Source: Candidatus Psyllophila symbiotica
GTDB taxonomy: Bacteria > Pseudomonadota > Gammaproteobacteria > Enterobacterales > Enterobacteriaceae_A
Assembly: GCA_030849345.1 (NCBI GenBank)
Contig: CP102983.1
Location: 1-64,000 of the forward strand
DNA length: 64,000 bases
Reading direction: 5' to 3'
Position numbers and translations under genes: made by a program. The notes beneath the pieces are model-generated. The model did no database searches, had not been told where the DNA came from, and saw nothing but the letters and a program-made list of their open reading frames with translations. Positions 1,714 through 60,847 of this stretch are shown piece after piece. Positions within the stretch are counted from its first letter, which is position 1; every line of letters starts with the position of its first letter.

Positions 1714-2382
1714 TTAAATTAAATTAAGTTGATTACGCATTTGATCTATTGTTAATTTATAATTATTACTTTTAAATATAGCAGTTCCTACTACAAAAAT
1801 ATTAGCACCCATTTTTGCAATTTTTAAAATATTATTTATATTAATACCTCCGTCAACTTCTAAATCAATATTATATCCACTATTATCAATAATTTTTTTA
1901 GTTTTTTTAATTTTATTTAAAATTTTTTCAATAAATTGTTGCCCACCAAAACCTGGATTAACTGACATTAATAATATTGTATCAATTTTGTTAATAATAT
2001 ATTTTAAACAATTTAATGATGTTTCTGGATTAATAACTATACCTACTTTACAATTATTTTTTTTAATTAATTGTATAGTTTTATTTATATTATTTGTTGT
2101 TTCTGGATGAAAAGATATAATATTTGCTCCAGCTTTTATAAATTCTGGTATTATTCTATCAACTGGTTTAACCATTAAATGAATTTCTATATTTGTTTTA
2201 ATACCATAATCTCTAATAGCCTTACATATTATAGGACCAAATGTTAAATTTTTAACATAATGATTATCCATAACATCAAAATGTAACATATTTGCCCCTG
2301 AATTTAAAACATTTTTAACATCTTTACCTAATCTTGCAAAATCTGCTGATAATATAGAGGGTGAAATTAAAAACTTTTTCAT
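1714..2382 (-). CDS. rpe: ribulose-phosphate 3-epimerase
   Basis: Interconverts ribulose 5-phosphate and xylulose 5-phosphate in the non-oxidative pentose phosphate pathway; cytosolic TIM barrel. The sequence has SILSADF at the N terminus (residues 9-15), the metal ligands in HFDVMD (H34, D36), IHLMV, the [10 protein letters not shown] phosphate-binding loop and LEVDGGI with the catalytic Asp near 176. Full family length at 222 residues. A purine-rich GGAG lies just upstream of the ATG. It stands alone between the convergent dnaX and the co-directional greA. Rpe can supply pentose phosphates for nucleotides and for riboflavin synthesis (ribulose 5-phosphate is the RibB substrate). Confidence 0.96.
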
Positions 2383-3398: not shown

Positions 3399-5194
3399 AT
3401 GATTATTAAAAAAAAAAAAAAAATATAATAATAAAAAAATTTTAATTTCAAATAAAAATAAATATATTAAATATTATAATAAATATAAATTTAATATTAT
3501 TATATATAAAAATACTTATTTATTAAAATTAATAAATATAATTAAAATAAAATATAATAAATTAATAGAAAAATTAATTCAATATAAAATTATAATAGAT
3601 AAATATATTATTAAAAAACAAAAAATATATTTTATTTTAAAACATTTTAATAATAAAATAATTTTATATAATAATATCTTTAAAAAAAATATTAATAAAA
3701 TAAATAAAATTAAAAATATAAAATTTAAAAAAAAAATTCCCATTGTTACAATAATGGGACATGTAAATCATGGTAAAACAACTTTATTAGATTATATTAG
3801 ATCTACAAAATTAGTATCACAAGAATCAGGAGGAATTACTCAACATATTGGTTTTTATAATATTAAAACTAAATATGGAATTATTACTTTTTTTGATACA
3901 CCAGGTCATGAAGTATTTACTTCAATGCGTAAAAGAGGTGTTAAAAACACTGATATTGTAGTTTTAGTAATTGCTATAAATGACGGTGTTATGCCTCAAA
4001 CAATAGAAACAATAAAATATATCAAAAGTTTAAATATTCCATTAATTATTACAATTAATAAAATAGATAAAATTAATTATAATACAAATATTATTAAAAA
4101 TGAATTAGCGAAATATGAAATTATATCTGAAAAATGGGGTGGGGAAACACAATTTATAAATATTTCTGCTAAAACTGGTAAAGGAGTTAAAAATTTGATT
4201 AAAGCAATTTTATTACAATCTGAAATATTAGAATTAAAAGAAAAAAAAAAAAAAATATCAGAAGGTGTTGTTATTGAATCATATTTTGATAAAGGAAATG
4301 GACCTATTATTACTGTATTAATAAAAAAAGGATTTTTAAATATTGGAGATATAATTTTATATAATTTAGAATATAGTAAAATAAAATATATGTATAATTC
4401 TTTTGGTAAAAAAATAAATTACGCTAGAACTTCTTTACCTGTTGAAATAATAGGGATGACTACTATACCTAAAAATGGTGATAAAGTATATTTTTTAAAA
4501 AAAAAAGAACATAAAGATATTTTAATAAATAAAACAAAATTAATTATTGAAAAAAAAAAAAAAAAAAAAAATTAATTTAAATTTAAATAATTATAAAATA
4601 TTAAAAATAAATATTATATTAAAATCAGATACTTTAGGTTCATGTGAAGTTATTAAAAAAGAATTATTAAAATTATCTAATGAAAAAATAAAAATTAATA
4701 TTATTAATTTTGGAATAGGTAATGTTTCAGAAAGTGATTTAATTATGGCTTTAAATAATAAATCAATTATAATATGTTTTAATGTACATAAAGATTATTC
4801 TGTACGTAAAATATTTAATTTTGAAAATATTGATATTCGTTATTATTCAATTATATATACATTAATTAATGATATTAAAAAAGAAATAAAATTATTAATA
4901 CCTAAAAATAAAATTGAAATAGTTGGTTTAGCTAATATAATTAATGTGTTTAAATCTGAAAAAATTGGTTTTATAGCTGGTTGTATAATAATAAATGGTA
5001 TAATTAAAAAAAATGATCAAATTAGAATTTTACGTAATAATAAAATTATACATATAGGAAAAATAAAAACATTAAAACATTTTAAAGAAAATGTAAAAGA
5101 AGTAAGTAATGGTATGAAATGTGGTATTTATATTAAAAATTTTAATAATTTTAAAATTAAAGATAAAATTGAAGCTTTTAAATTAATTAATTAA
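3399..5194 (+). CDS. infB: translation initiation factor IF-2, interrupted by two poly(A) frameshifts
   Basis: GTPase that places initiator tRNA on the 30S subunit. The conserved part reads through three frame segments. The ATG at 3399 is followed by a run of 16 A (3408-3423) and a stop. The next frame stays open from about 3424 to 4575 and holds the pre-G domain, the G1 motif GHVNHGKTT, DTPGHE and NKIDK, then runs into 22 A (4550-4571) and a stop. A third frame (to 5194) carries the C-terminal domains, beginning ILKSDTLGS and including CGIYIKNFN. Removing one A (or adding two) at each tract gives one protein of about 598 residues, lacking most of the long N-terminal region of E. coli IF-2 (890). 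Both tracts fall in Lys-rich stretches. The gene is essential, so transcriptional or ribosomal slippage is likely; assembly error in the homopolymers is the alternative. Confidence 0.85.
3408..3423 (+). repeat. poly(A)16 tract, first frameshift site of infB
   Basis: Sixteen consecutive A follow ATG ATT ATT. Read as written, the start codon frame ends at TAA 3426-3428. The downstream infB frame is reached with 15 A. No Shine-Dalgarno sequence is evident, so the true start could instead be a non-ATG codon downstream. Confidence 0.8.
4550..4571 (+). repeat. poly(A)22 tract, second frameshift site of infB
   Basis: Twenty-two consecutive A encode the Lys-rich linker between the IF-2 G domain/domain 2 half and the C-terminal half. 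As written the upstream frame reads Lys codons, AAT, then TAA at 4573-4575. With 21 A the two halves join in frame. Confidence 0.9.
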
Positions 5195-18570: not shown

Positions 18571-19698
18571 ATGAATAAAAATAATATATATAATAAAATT
18601 CAATTTAAAATTGATAAATTATATATAAATCGTGCTTTACAAATATCATATATAGGTAATTTTACTTCTATGCCTAATCCAAGTGTTGGGTGTATAATAG
18701 TTAAAAAAAAAAAAATTATAGGCGAAGGTGTTCATATATTTTTAAGTGGTCCGCATGCTGAAATTAATGCTTTGAGAGATTCAAAAATTAATGTTAAAAA
18801 TTCTACAATGTATATAACTTTGGAACCATGTAGTTATTATAATAATACACCACCTTGTGTAAAAGCTATTATTAATTCCGGAATAAAAAGAGTTGTTATA
18901 GCTATAAAAGATCCAAATCCTAAAATTTTAGATAATAGTTATAAAATTTTGAAAAATAATAATATTAAAATTACTTATATTAAAATAAAATCTACAAATA
19001 AAAGTAATATAGGTTTTTTTAAAAGAATGATAATAGGAATTCCATATATTACTTTAAAATTAGGTATTTCAATAGATAGTAAAATTGCATTATTTTCTGG
19101 AATAAGTAAATGGATAACTTCTTTAAAATCAAGAATAGATGTACAAAATGTAAGAATTCAAAATACAGCTATTATTAGCACTAGTAATACAATATTGTTT
19201 GATAACCCATCTTTAAATATAAATTTCAAATATATTAATAAAAAAATTAAAACAATATATCCATTTAAAAATTTAAAACAACCAATAATAATTATAATTG
19301 ATAGTAAAAATAAAATAAAGTTAAAACATAAAATAATAAATACAAATAGAGAAATTTTATTAATACGCTTAATTAAAGATAATAAAATTTGGCCTAAAAA
19401 TGTACATCAAATAATTTTTAAAAAAAAAATTAATTTAAAAATATTAACTTTATTTTTAGGTAAAATTAAAATAAATAATATTTTATTTGAAGTTGGATCT
19501 AAATTATCAGGTTCTTTATTAAAATTAAAGTTAATAGATAAATTAATTTTATATGTATCTCCTAAAATTTTAGGTAATAAAAGTTTAAGTATTTTTAATT
19601 TACCAAAATTAAAAACAATATTAAATAAAAATTATTTTATTTTTAAAAAAATTAAAAAAATTGGTGAAGACATAAAAATAATATTAAAAAAAAAATAA
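18571..19698 (+). CDS. ribD: bifunctional riboflavin deaminase/reductase RibD
   Basis: Second and third steps of riboflavin synthesis from GTP. The deaminase half has the zinc site H62-A-E64 and C87...C96 (EPCSYYNNTPPC), with PNPSVGC upstream. The reductase half begins near residue 160 with LGISIDSKIAL and SKWITS. At 375 residues it slightly exceeds E. coli (367). It precedes ribH by 26 bases, the enterobacterial order; nrdR and nusB, its usual neighbours, are absent. ribB is elsewhere in the window; ribA and riboflavin synthase are not seen here. Confidence 0.97.
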   Translation: MNKNNIYNKIQFKIDKLYINRALQISYIGNFTSMPNPSVGCIIVKKKKIIGEGVHIFLSGPHAEINALRDSKINVKNSTMYITLEPCSYYNNTPPCVKAIINSGIKRVVIAIKDPNPKILDNSYKILKNNNIKITYIKIKSTNKSNIGFFKRMIIGIPYITLKLGISIDSKIALFSGISKWITSLKSRIDVQNVRIQNTAIISTSNTILFDNPSLNINFKYINKKIKTIYPFKNLKQPIIIIIDSKNKIKLKHKIINTNREILLIRLIKDNKIWPKNVHQIIFKKKINLKILTLFLGKIKINNILFEVGSKLSGSLLKLKLIDKLILYVSPKILGNKSLSIFNLPKLKTILNKNYFIFKKIKKIGEDIKIILKKK

Positions 19699-19724
19699 AT
19701 TTAATATAATAAGTAAGATAAAAT

Positions 19725-20198
19725 ATGAAAATTATTAAAGGTGATTTTTTATCACCTGAAAGTTATATAGCGATTGTAGTTGCACGTTTTAATGATTTTA
19801 TAAATAAAGTATTATTAAATGGAGCTATAGAAATTTTAGAAAGAATAGGGCAAATATCAAATAAAAATATTACTATTGTTTGGGTACCAGGAGCTTACGA
19901 ATTACCTTTAATATCTCAAATATTATCAAATTCTAAAAAATATAATGCAATAATAGCTTTAGGTACAATTATTAAAGGAAATACATCACATTTTAATTAT
20001 GTATCAAATTCAGTAAGTACAAGTATTAATAATGTTATTTTAAAAACTGAAATACCTATTATATTTGGTATTTTAACAACTAATAATATTGAACAAGCTA
20101 TTAATAGAGCTGGATGCAAATCTGGTAATAAAGGTTCTGAAGCAGCTTTAAATGCATTAGAAATGATAAATATTATTAATAAAATTAATAATATTTAA
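19725..20198 (+). CDS. ribH: 6,7-dimethyl-8-ribityllumazine synthase
   Basis: Penultimate step of riboflavin synthesis, forming an icosahedral capsid in many bacteria. The sequence has IAIVVARFNDFI, VPGAYELP, ALGTIIKGNTSHF (substrate binding with the conserved His) and NRAGCKSGNKGSEAALNALEM. Full length (157). It shares a transcription unit with ribD, with a GTAAGA sequence upstream of the ATG. Confidence 0.97.
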   Translation: MKIIKGDFLSPESYIAIVVARFNDFINKVLLNGAIEILERIGQISNKNITIVWVPGAYELPLISQILSNSKKYNAIIALGTIIKGNTSHFNYVSNSVSTSINNVILKTEIPIIFGILTTNNIEQAINRAGCKSGNKGSEAALNALEMINIINKINNI

Positions 20199-41645: not shown

Positions 41646-41763
41646 AAATTATCTTATTTATAATTTTAAAATTATATTTTAAAATTATTTAATTAATAAA
41701 TATTTTAAAATTAAATATAATAAAAATAAATATTTTTAATTTAATTATTTAAATTTTAAATTT

Positions 41764-42657
41764 TTAAATAATATTATAATTTATTAATTTATTGTTTTTA
41801 ATACCAATACATATGTTTTTATAACCTTTATATATTAATTTAATTGCATAAGTACCCATACTATACCCTAAAATTCTATCATATACTACAGGTTTTCCTC
41901 CTCTTTGAATATAACCTAAAATAACTGTTTTTATTTGTTTTTTAATTTTTTTTTTAATATATTTAGAAAATTTTTGAATATTATAAATATTTTCAGTAAT
42001 AATTATGATTGCATTTTTTAACCCATTTAATATTTTTAATTTAATTTCATTAATTAAATTATTAATATTAAATTTAATTTCAGGAATTATAAAAAATTCA
42101 CATTTTCCAGCAATAGCTGCCGCTATTGTTAATTTACCACAATTTCTTCCCATAACTTCAATTATAAAAATACATTCATGTGAATAAGCAGTATCACGTA
42201 TATTATCTATTGATTCTACTATAGTATTTAAAGCAGTAAAATACCCTATAGAATAATCTGTATATAAAATATCATTATCAATTGTTCCAGGTAAATTTAT
42301 ACAAGAAATTTTTTTTTTAATTAAATATTTAGAACCAATATATGTTCCATTACCGCCTATAATAATTATTGAATTAATTTTTTTTTTTTTTAAATTATTA
42401 ATAGATTTACATATAATATTTTCATTTTTAAATTTTTTAAATCTAGAAGATCCTAAAAATGTACCACCATTATTATTTAAATTTAATAATTTATAATTTT
42501 TAATTTGTATAATTTTATTTTCATATAAACCTTTATAACCATTAAAAATACCAAAAATATTAAATTTATATATAAAAGCAGCATTTAAGACACCATTAAT
42601 AATATAATTCATACCAGGTGAATCACCACCACTAGTTAATATACCAATATTTTTCAT
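41764..42657 (-). CDS. pfkA: 6-phosphofructokinase with Asn at the Mg-ligand position
   Basis: Committing step of glycolysis. It has LTSGGDSPGMN at the start, PGTIDND with the catalytic Asp127-type residue, EVMGRNCGKL, and GYIQRGG. At residue 103 the motif reads GGNGTYIGS, whereas ATP-dependent PfkA has GGDGSYMGA; Asp103 helps bind Mg-ATP in E. coli. Gly104, which favours ATP over pyrophosphate, is kept. 297 residues against 320; the C-terminal tail is short. An AAGGATT ribosome-binding site lies upstream. Activity may be altered (inference). Confidence 0.94.
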   Translation of the reverse strand: MKNIGILTSGGDSPGMNYIINGVLNAAFIYKFNIFGIFNGYKGLYENKIIQIKNYKLLNLNNNGGTFLGSSRFKKFKNENIICKSINNLKKKKINSIIIIGGNGTYIGSKYLIKKKISCINLPGTIDNDILYTDYSIGYFTALNTIVESIDNIRDTAYSHECIFIIEVMGRNCGKLTIAAAIAGKCEFFIIPEIKFNINNLINEIKLKILNGLKNAIIIITENIYNIQKFSKYIKKKIKKQIKTVILGYIQRGGKPVVYDRILGYSMGTYAIKLIYKGYKNICIGIKNNKLINYNII

Positions 42658-57667: not shown

Positions 57668-58342
57668 TTAAAAATAATTAAAATTTATATATTTCCATAA
57701 TTTTATTTTATTATGTTTTTTAAAATAAGGTATTTCCCCTAAAAAAATAATATTTAAATTTTGTTTTAAAGTATTAATATATTTTTTATGCCAAATATTT
57801 TTATTATTAATATTATTTGCAATCCATCCTTTTAAAATTAATCCTTTTTTTTTAATAGATTCAACAGTTAATAATGCATGATTTATACAACCTAATTTTA
57901 TCCCAACAACTAAAATAACTGAAATTTTTTCTTTAAATACCCAATCTGAAAATTTTTTAATTTTAGATATTGGAGTTAACCAACCACCTATCCCTTCTAT
58001 AATAATTAAATTTGTTTTTTTTTTAATATATTTCAATATTGATGAAATTTTATATAATGATATTGGTTTTTTAATTCTTTCACTAATAATATTAGGTGAT
58101 GTTTTATCTAAAAAATTATATGGATTAATAATATTATAATATAATTGAATATTACTATTTTTTTTAAGTGATAAAGCATCATTATTACGTAATCCATATT
58201 TTGTAATTTTACAACCTGAAGCAATTGGTTTATAACCTACACTATCGAAATTTAATTTTTTAGCTAATTGTAATAACATTATACTTATAAAAGTTTTACC
58301 AACTTTAGTATCAGTTCCTGTAATAAATAAACATATTGTCAA
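57668..58342 (-). CDS. bioD: dethiobiotin synthetase
   Basis: ATP-dependent ring closure to dethiobiotin. It has LFITGTDTKVGKTFIS (P-loop) at the N terminus, YKPIASGC, and IIEGIGGWLTPI. I place the start at TTG 58342, because AAGGGA (58354-58349) lies 6 bases upstream and the resulting 224-residue protein (MTICLFITGTDT) aligns with E. coli BioD (MSKRYFVTGTDT, 225). A TTG at 58360 would add six residues and swallow that ribosome-binding site. It is separated by 114 bases from bioB on the same strand. bioF, bioC and bioH are not seen. Confidence 0.95.
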   Translation of the reverse strand: MTICLFITGTDTKVGKTFISIMLLQLAKKLNFDSVGYKPIASGCKITKYGLRNNDALSLKKNSNIQLYYNIINPYNFLDKTSPNIISERIKKPISLYKISSILKYIKKKTNLIIIEGIGGWLTPISKIKKFSDWVFKEKISVILVVGIKLGCINHALLTVESIKKKGLILKGWIANNINNKNIWHKKYINTLKQNLNIIFLGEIPYFKKHNKIKLWKYINFNYF

Positions 58343-58456
58343 AAAAATTCCCTTAAACAATATTTTTTTGAATTTAAAAATAAATTATATTATTAATTTA
58401 TAAATATTAAATAAATTTAAATATTTTATTTATAATTATTATTATTAAATTTAAAT

Positions 58457-59476
58457 TTAATTATTTAAAGTTGCATCATAAAATTTAATTTCTTTTTTAT
58501 TTATATTTTTATTAATTTTATTAATTTTTATTTTTTTTTTTTCTATTTTTAAACCTAATTTATTTAATAATTTTAAATCTTTATCTTCATTAGGATTTGG
58601 GGTAGTTAATAATTTACATCCATAAAATATTGAATTTGCTCCTGCCATAAAACACATAGCTTGAGTTTGTTCATTCATATTTTCTCTACCTGCTGAAAGT
58701 CGAATATATGATTTAGGTATCATTATGCGCGCAATAGCAATAATTTTAATAAATTCAAATGGATCAATATCTTTATTTTTTTCTAATGGTGTTCCACTAA
58801 CTTTCACTAACATATTAATAGGAATACTTTCAGGAGGTATTTTCATATTTGCTAATTGCATTAATAAAATCATTCTATCTTTAATATTTTCACCTAACCC
58901 TATAATACCTCCAGAACAAACTTTTATTCCAGTTTTTCTAATATTTTTTATAGTATTTAATCTATCTTGATAATTACGAGTAGTAATAATTTTTTTATAA
59001 TATTCAGGAGAAGTATCTATATTATGATTATAATAATCTAAACCAGAATTATATAAAATTTTAGCTTGTTTTTCATTTAAAGAACCTAAAGTCATACATG
59101 TTTCAAGACCAATTTTTTTAACTGTTTTAATTATTTTATTTAAATAAGGCATATCACGTTCTTTAGGGTTTTTCCAAGCTGCACCCATGCAAAATCTTGT
59201 TGCACCGTTTTTTTTTGCTTTAATTGCGGCATCTAAAATTTTATTAATTTTAATTAAACGTTCTTTTTTTAAATTAGTTTTATATCTAGAACTTTGAGGA
59301 CAATATTTACAATCTTCTGGACATGCTCCAGTTTTTATAGATAACAGAGTACTAATTTGTATTGTATTAGGTTTAAAATTTTTTCTATGTATATTTTGGG
59401 CTAAAAATATTAATTCTAATAAAGGTGTATTAAAAAGTTTTTGTGTTTTTTTTGTTGTCCAAATTTTATTATTCAT
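58457..59476 (-). CDS. bioB: biotin synthase
   Basis: Radical SAM enzyme inserting sulfur into dethiobiotin. The 4Fe-4S ligands are C52, C56 and C59 ([11 protein letters not shown]); the 2Fe-2S region includes [25 protein letters not shown], and Arg in RLSAGRENM. 339 residues against 346. An AAGG ribosome-binding site precedes the ATG by 8 bases. It is divergent from bioA as in the E. coli bio locus; here bioF, bioC and the link to bioD have been lost or moved. Confidence 0.98.
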
Positions 59477-59511
59477 TTAAAATGCCTTAATAAATTTATA
59501 TTTAAATATAG

Positions 59512-59539
59512 ATTAATAAACACATATATATACTGTCAA
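59512..59539 (-). promoter_or_regulatory. candidate bioB promoter in the bioB-bioA spacer
   Basis: A perfect TTGACA (59539-59534, minus strand) is followed after 16 bases by ATTAAT (4 of 6 consensus bases). The 93-bp divergent spacer shows no TTGTAAACC/GGTTTACAA operator, so BirA repression is probably absent. The -10 call is tentative. Confidence 0.35.
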
Positions 59540-59569
59540 CTATTAATAATTTAATTATATAATATAATT

Positions 59570-60847
59570 ATGTATATTAAAATAACAAAAACAAAATTTG
59601 ATAAAAAATATATTTGGCACCCATATACTTCAATAATTAAACCATTAAAATGTTATAATATTTTAAATGCAAAAGGATCAATATTAAAATTATCAAATGG
59701 TATTAATTTAATAGATGGAATGTCTTCTTGGTGGTCATGTATACATGGTTATAATAATGTTTTACTTAATAAAGCAATAAATAAACAAATTAAAAGAATT
59801 TCACATATTATGTTTGGGGGATTTAAACATATAGAAGCTATAAAATTATGTAATAATTTAATTAATTTAACACCTAAAAAATTACAATATGTTTTTTTAG
59901 CAGATTCTGGTTCAGTTTCTATAGAAGTAGCATTAAAAATGTCATTACAATATTGGCAAGCAAAAGGTGAATTTAGAGAAAAAATTTTAACAATTAAAAA
60001 TGGTTATCATGGTGATACATTTGGCGCTATGTCAGTATGTGATCCTATAAATTCTATGCATAATATATATCGAAAATATTTACCACAACATATTTTTGCA
60101 GAACCTCCAAAATGTAAATTTAATGAAATATGGAATGAAAATGATATTAACTCTTTTAAATTTTTATTAAAAAAATATTCTAAAAAAATTGCATGTGTTA
60201 TATTAGAACCAATTATACAAGGTGCTGGGGGTATGAAAATATATAACCCAATGTATTTAAAAAAAGTAAGTTTATTATGTAAAAAATATAAAATTTTATT
60301 AATATTAGATGAAATAGCTACAGGTTTTGGACGTACTGGAAAATTATTTGCTTACGAATATGCTGGTATTGTTCCAGATATATTATGTTTAGGAAAATCA
60401 TTAACTGGAGGTTATATGACTTTAGCAGCTACTATTACAACAAAAAAAATAGCATATACAATAAGTAATAGTAAATCAGGTTGTTTTATGCATGGACCTA
60501 CATTTATGGGTAACCCTGTTGCATGTTCAGTAGCAAATGCTAATATAAAAATTATAAATAAAAAAAAATGGATTAAAAAAGTTCAATATATAGAAAATTA
60601 TTTTAAAAAAAAATTAATACCATTAATTAAATCAAATAAAATATTAGATATTAGAATATTAGGTGCAATAGGAATTATAGAAACTATTAATTTTATTGAT
60701 ATTAATAAAATACAAAATTTTTTAATTAATAAAGGTGTTTGGATTAGGCCATTTAAAAAATTGATTTATTTAACACCTCCATATATAATTAAAAAAAGAG
60801 AATTAAGTATTTTAATTAATTCTGTTATATCTATATTTGGTAATTAA
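59570..60847 (+). CDS. bioA: adenosylmethionine-8-amino-7-oxononanoate aminotransferase
   Basis: PLP enzyme that forms 7,8-diaminopelargonate for biotin. It has IWHPYTS at the N terminus, DGMSSWWSCIHGYN (substrate Trp pair), GYHGDTFGAMSV, LDEIATGFGRTGKLFA, and the PLP Lys276 in LGKSLTGGYMTLAAT, then GPTFMGNPVAC. 425 residues against 429. Divergent from bioB over 93 bp. Confidence 0.98.
   Translation: MYIKITKTKFDKKYIWHPYTSIIKPLKCYNILNAKGSILKLSNGINLIDGMSSWWSCIHGYNNVLLNKAINKQIKRISHIMFGGFKHIEAIKLCNNLINLTPKKLQYVFLADSGSVSIEVALKMSLQYWQAKGEFREKILTIKNGYHGDTFGAMSVCDPINSMHNIYRKYLPQHIFAEPPKCKFNEIWNENDINSFKFLLKKYSKKIACVILEPIIQGAGGMKIYNPMYLKKVSLLCKKYKILLILDEIATGFGRTGKLFAYEYAGIVPDILCLGKSLTGGYMTLAATITTKKIAYTISNSKSGCFMHGPTFMGNPVACSVANANIKIINKKKWIKKVQYIENYFKKKLIPLIKSNKILDIRILGAIGIIETINFIDINKIQNFLINKGVWIRPFKKLIYLTPPYIIKKRELSILINSVISIFGN

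Follow-up and report, generated by a model that had tools for sequence, protein, structure and literature searches.

Residue 103 is one of several lesions in the eroding phosphofructokinase of Candidatus Psyllophila symbiotica

Introduction

What does it mean for an insect symbiont when a metal-side aspartate is missing from its only phosphofructokinase (PFK)? The question is raised by pfkA of Candidatus Psyllophila symbiotica strain PSpyc, which lies on the minus strand at 41764..42657 of the window (the whole stretch of DNA that was analysed, the first 64,000 nucleotides of contig CP102983.1) and encodes Asn at residue 103, where E. coli PfkA has an Asp that we take to be the Mg ligand. A sequence-only reading of the window had proposed that this substitution might weaken flux at the committed step of glycolysis or shift metal or phosphoryl donor use, as an early sign of glycolysis decay that left carbon entry to the pentose phosphate pathway. 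It had taken the source for an insect symbiont, which was borne out, as the bacterium lives inside pear psyllids; the host of PSpyc is presumably Cacopsylla pyricola, going by the strain label. In the open-access literature, which excludes most subscription papers and all supplements, we found nothing in print on Psyllophila PfkA and no published text on Asp103 of phosphofructokinase.

Six genomes (G000 to G005) were compared, comprising the source genome (222,755 bases, one contig), three sister Psyllophila (G001, PSpyr, 221,413 bases; G002, PSpic1, 225,730; G003, PSmelAO1, 237,114) and two same-family genomes of a second genus (G004 and G005). This second genus is probably Ca. Annandia, which adjoins Psyllophila in the placement given in the accessible part of PMC11427311. 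Residues were surveyed in 53 distinct PFK rows plus the E. coli reference, the rows being the window, 38 loci from a search for relatives, and a further 2 and 12; this set omits some matches of the relatives search, long and distant PFKs among them, and L040 was excluded from counts because it came from the same genome as L032 (PSpyr).

Gene identity and the residue at position 103

The pfkA open frame of 297 codons was the single PF00365 match in the whole genome (302.8 bits vs. a cut-off of 30.9). It passed the NCBIfam model NF002872 (352.1 bits, cut-off 253), and TIGR02482 (PFKA_ATP), which was the best among the equivalog models listed, gave 338.7 bits, below its cut-off of 371.35; these profile matches mark it as an ATP-type 6-phosphofructokinase. 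E. coli PfkA (PFK-I, 1pfk) was its best PDB sequence match and aligned without gaps over residues 2-297, and by this alignment residue numbers in the window are those of the literature. Coordinates given below for codons 162, 243, and 249 and for the effector stretch were calculated arithmetically from the start of the pfkA open reading frame.

Codon 103 (42349..42351, minus strand) reads AAT, and the window motif GGNGT aligns with GGDGS of E. coli, in agreement with the earlier reading down to the numbering. That reading had recommended a comparison with sister symbionts, in which Asn103 was found in 4/4 Psyllophila genomes, encoded by AAT in all of them, and in one of the two same-family genomes (L036). 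A sequencing or assembly error at this codon, which the earlier reading had named as a possible refutation, is made marginally conceivable by the labelling of a sister record as a metagenome assembly (the source genome is probably likewise), but the identical AAT in four Psyllophila genomes renders it next to impossible. The description of Asp103 as strictly conserved did not survive the survey, in which position 103 was Asp in 46 of the 53 rows and Glu in two (Ca. Stammera, L042, and L039), the other five, those of L036 and the four Psyllophila, having Asn. The L039 enzyme, from a genome of 3.2 Mb (G053), reads GGEGS and keeps the other active-site residues tested, making it a natural non-Asp enzyme of interest.

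Mg is held less strongly by Asn than by Asp, a general consideration in favour of Asn103 changing the metal (Mn for Mg) or the phosphoryl donor (PPi or ADP). Donor signatures given in the accessible part of PMC11609450 are GGDGSxxG for ATP-PFK, GGDGSxxI for ADP-PFK, and GG(D/E)D(S/T) for PPi-PFK, the last of which tolerates Glu at 103. The window motif, GGNGTYIG, retains Gly104 and Gly108, as in the ATP type, and has lost Asp103; the Asp that PPi enzymes carry at 104 is missing from it, and its Thr in place of Ser at 105 occurs in other PFK rows too. With the ATP signature intact save at residue 103, the suggested donor shift could not be upheld, and a change of donor or metal is very unlikely. 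The change at residue 103 alone is ordinary symbiont erosion.

Substrate and effector sites

The earlier reading had held that the other catalytic residues remain. This was true in part, as Asp127, Asp129, Arg72, Thr125, Arg171, Glu222, and Arg252 were invariant in 53/53 rows, as were PFK positions 11, 72, 125-129, 169-171, 222, and 252, so that the base Asp127 together with Asp129, Arg72, and Arg171 was present in every row surveyed. It did not hold for the whole of the pocket that binds the phosphate of fructose 6-phosphate (F6P), where the window has Cys for Arg at residue 162 (TGT, 42172..42174), Lys for Arg at residue 243 (41929..41931), and Tyr for His at residue 249 (41911..41913), all on the minus strand. 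According to PMC12203962, Arg162 reaches over the subunit boundary to touch the F6P phosphate bound next door. The phosphate is described as coordinated by Arg162 and His249, Arg243 is termed fructose-binding, and residues 161/162 were later deemed nonessential to allosteric coupling (PMC12889660). Arg162 was replaced by Cys or Ser in all four Psyllophila and was Arg in the remaining 49/49 rows. Position 243 was Lys in the window and in PSpyr (L032), and varied in three distant rows as well (Lys, Thr, and Gln, one each), whereas the other two sisters (L033 and L034) retained Arg243. Tyr249 occurred in the window, L036, Ca. Stammera, and two other rows; among the four Psyllophila it was confined to the window, His249 being present in all three sisters, while Arg162Cys and Arg243Lys were shared by the window and PSpyr only. 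Counting Arg252, which we take to be the fourth contact to the F6P phosphate, three of four contacts differed from E. coli in the window, against two in L032 and a single one in each of L033 and L034, and with three of the four altered the window enzyme could be nearly dead.

The effector site was changed too. In the same published accounts, Arg21 and Arg25 are critical to both effectors, and Arg154 and Glu187 touch the effector as well. Within 42496..42597 (minus strand), the stretch with effector-site positions 21, 25, and 54, all three are Asn in the window and Arg in E. coli. Arg54, Asp59, and residues 211-215 were also taken as part of the effector site. Arg21, Arg25, Arg54, Asp59, Lys213, and His215 were substituted in 4/4 Psyllophila; Arg154 and Glu187 were retained in 4/4 and Lys214 in 3/4. 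Because Arg154 and Glu187 are kept throughout the genus, the effector site is not wholly lost and some regulation may remain.

Psyllophila PfkA also lacks the C-terminal tail, of which 22 residues are missing from the window enzyme relative to E. coli. No remnant of this tail was seen in any frame of 41646..41766 (minus strand), which spans the pfkA stop codon and the 118-bp gap to gltX. Among the 53 rows, the tail (at least 18 residues) was missing only from the four Psyllophila and from Ca. Stammera capleta (CP043980.1, 245,897 bp), whose PfkA parallels that of Psyllophila in coming from a small genome with an eroded effector site and a non-Asp residue at 103, and differs in having Glu103 and in keeping Arg162. 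Nine more genomes of small size (rounded, 0.5 to 1.2 Mb) kept Asp103, Arg162, and the tail in 9/9, although in two of them (L081 and L083) residues of the effector site had changed; another three small genomes (G397, G399, and G416) had no PFK match. Since the nine retain all three features, the full substitution pattern is not general to reduced symbionts. A ranking of Asn103 as the main lesion was not supported, the losses of the Arg162 contact, of effector-site arginines, and of the tail being at least as large. More telling than Asn103 is that the whole genus has lost Arg162 and arginines of the effector site, and that the aldolase gene is broken in the source genome (see below).

Phylogeny, selection, and structure

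A tree was built from 24 sequences, E. coli and 23 rows of the survey. In it the Psyllophila rows formed one clade (support 100/100) and the two same-family rows, L035 and L036, another (100/98); 5 of 21 inner branches were well supported, and the placement of Ca. Stammera, on a long branch, was unsure. Codon 103 is GAT in L035, from which AAT is a single G-to-A step. As L035 pairs with L036, Asn103 requires at least two changes, having been either gained twice or gained once and later reverted. By parsimony, Asn103 predates the split of the four Psyllophila and is not recent in the source strain.

Simple Nei-Gojobori estimates of dN/dS were made for 42 window open reading frames of at least 150 aa with a PSpyr counterpart matched over at least 60% of their length. 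The gene for PfkA ranked 23 of 42, with a dN/dS of 0.316, and was thus under ordinary purifying selection between the PSpyc and PSpyr lineages; a ratio of 0.32, taken across a single pair of lineages, is no proof that PfkA works today or that selection continued after the aldolase break. No internal stop was found in the pfkA frame in 4/4 Psyllophila genomes and, together with the ordinary dN/dS, this led us to reject open pseudogenization of pfkA.

The best of five AlphaFold2 models, built from four sequences, had a mean pLDDT of 72.8 (the others 48.8-59.6), and its best Foldseek match was E. coli PFK (2pfk, TM 0.85). The model is consistent with a predicted PFK fold minus the tail; loops 57-71, 170-184, and 248-253 were unreliable, so metal geometry was not read from it.

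Metabolic context

Family searches of the six genomes placed PfkA in a broken pathway. Neither pgi nor transaldolase (PF00923) was found in any of the six (0/6 each), and pgk was found in 0/4 Psyllophila and 2/2 genomes of the second genus; transketolase (tkt), gnd, and pfkA were found in 6/6. Glycolysis decay, which had been suggested from residue 103, was therefore substantiated, but not as an early event, since pgi and pgk went undetected in 4/4 Psyllophila and the aldolase gene fbaA is broken in the source genome; it looks advanced, and residue 103 is a single change among several in an enzyme that is eroding. With pgi missing above PfkA and pgk below it, no ordinary glycolysis is left whose committed step PfkA could catalyse. 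Of the other glycolytic genes, which the earlier reading had also proposed to check, tpiA was open in the source genome. Retention of the oxidative and transketolase parts of the pentose phosphate pathway was supported: besides gnd and tkt in all six genomes, zwf was open in the source genome and the window encodes rpe, a ribulose-phosphate 3-epimerase (1714..2382, minus strand, open frame). Three 20-kb stretches of the source genome, free of N, were read, and open frames in this genome included zwf, tpiA, prs, gnd, tkt, PTS enzyme I, and pta. Apparent truncation of glyQ and ackA there was rejected, as both were open when all frames were read.

Blocks of N occurred in L077 (8001-16000), L078 (8001-20000), L057, and L006, and calling a gene absent is unsafe at those places. 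By search, tpiA was found in 5/6 genomes and zwf in 4/6, with zwf missing from G001 and G002 and tpiA from G002. A patchy loss of these genes was considered and dropped, given the N blocks of L077 and L078 there and a zwf that runs into the block in L077; by gene order, the two misses in G002 probably fall in masked blocks.

TrpA releases glyceraldehyde 3-phosphate, and riboflavin and tryptophan synthesis draw on ribulose 5-phosphate and PRPP. The accessible part of PMC10654072 describes Psyllophila as making most of riboflavin and completing tryptophan synthesis. Vitamin genes expected of Psyllophila were seen in the window, where, named by reading, bioD, bioB, and bioA lie together at 57668-60847 and ribD with ribE/ribH-type genes at 18571-20198. 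Also named by reading, infB (IF-2) at 3754-5194 shows up as two overlapping open reading frames that differ in frame around a run rich in A; a genuine split or frameshift, slippage at that run, or an error in sequencing could each account for this.

A class II aldolase was matched in 4/4 Psyllophila and in 0/2 genomes of the second genus, where the gene may nevertheless be present, since N blocks occur in some genomes. In the three sister Psyllophila, fbaA was unbroken (open frames of 357-366 codons). In the source genome, fbaA lies outside the window (G000:C1 139234-140095, equivalent to L075 9234-10095) and carries a frameshifting internal deletion of 206 bp relative to PSpyr; its 5' part is recognizable for 37 codons, after which the frame is lost and a stop follows, and its 3' part aligns to positions 74-267 of the 277-position profile. 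This 3' part is little changed from PSpyr (dN 0.027, dS 0.131), and the break is therefore either recent or an assembly fault. Two pseudogenes were counted for strain PSpyc in the accessible part of PMC10654072. Unless a class I aldolase exists, the deletion removes the use of the PfkA product.

One reading of these data is that PfkA is dead or nearly so, a protein fossil in which the losses of Asp103, Arg162, and regulatory arginines were neutral in an AT-biased genome once glycolysis had become useless. The pathway is broken above PfkA (pgi) and below it (pgk), the aldolase is broken in the source genome, the G-to-A step at codon 103 fits the direction of such a bias, and the graded number of altered F6P-phosphate contacts across the four Psyllophila suggests that change is continuing. 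Against this stand the frame uninterrupted in 4/4 Psyllophila, the 11 positions taken as chemistry residues that are invariant in 53 rows, and a dN/dS typical among window genes, and we regard a fossil PfkA as possible, if rather unlikely.

Alternatively, PfkA might have been re-specialized as a sedoheptulose-7-phosphate (S7P) kinase that replaces transaldolase via sedoheptulose bisphosphate (SBP) and class II aldolase, the altered 162/243/249 pocket accommodating the longer sugar. Such a role would suit genomes in which transaldolase is missing from all six while tkt, gnd, and pfkA are in all six, and a genus in which class II aldolase was matched in every genome, with an unbroken frame in three; of the positions examined, those changed on the substrate side sit at the sugar-phosphate end. 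PFK has been documented to run an SBP route in cellulolytic clostridia, which likewise have no transaldolase and possess a PFK and an aldolase (as do the sister Psyllophila), and, per the accessible part of PMC7029132, in transaldolase-less E. coli. According to the same text, however, the clostridial enzyme is a reversible, PPi-dependent PFK with good affinity for S7P, the affinity of E. coli PfkA for S7P is very low, and the anabolic direction is argued to need a reversible PPi-PFK, whereas the window enzyme has the ATP-type signature apart from residue 103. The two same-family genomes also have no transaldolase, yet keep Arg162, nothing indicates that Cys162 or Ser162 favours S7P, and the aldolase is broken in the source genome; we consider re-specialization improbable. 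A fuller version is similarly doubtful, in which Psyllophila PfkA would have lost regulatory arginines along with its arginine for the F6P phosphate to become a transaldolase substitute, with aldolase draining S7P and F6P while ribulose 5-phosphate and PRPP feed riboflavin and tryptophan synthesis, a route that PSpyc would just have lost through the fbaA deletion.

Implications

On balance, we favour the reading that Psyllophila PfkA has an eroded allosteric site and F6P clamp yet was kept by selection, acting as a poorly regulated and probably slow ATP-dependent kinase that drains F6P, perhaps S7P as well, from the pentose phosphate pathway and is probably stalling in PSpyc. Asn103 would be one of several substitutions accompanying extreme genome reduction, in the course of which much of the allosteric site and part of the F6P clamp were apparently lost while purifying selection kept the protein. 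From the residues retained we infer that the enzyme most likely still works in this manner, with Asp127 as the base, Asp129, Arg72, and Arg171 serving transfer, and the metal held by phosphates, water, and the neutral Asn103.

Genus-wide, PfkA would no longer open glycolysis. Transketolase would make F6P (and S7P) from the Zwf-Gnd-Rpe branch, and with no pgi, pgk, or transaldolase detected in the genus, the sole exit, as far as searched, would run through PfkA, class II aldolase, and TpiA, delivering triose that, with pgk missing, would not feed normal lower glycolysis. The second-genus genomes G004 and G005 count against this scheme in keeping pfkA with no class II aldolase match, N blocks occurring in some genomes. 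As the aldolase gene is broken in PSpyc, the drain is probably stalling there, and pfkA may be the next gene to be lost.

A network feeding riboflavin and tryptophan synthesis would be compatible with a PfkA under weak regulation that draws off surplus F6P. More broadly, the Psyllophila enzymes show which parts of an allosteric PFK can be lost once its pathway is gone, namely arginines of the regulatory site, the phosphate contact across the subunit boundary, the Asp on the metal side, and the C-terminal tail, while the transfer residues stay unchanged. Natural enzymes carrying Arg162Cys or Arg162Ser together with Asp103Asn offer ready material for testing how far a PFK can be stripped down.
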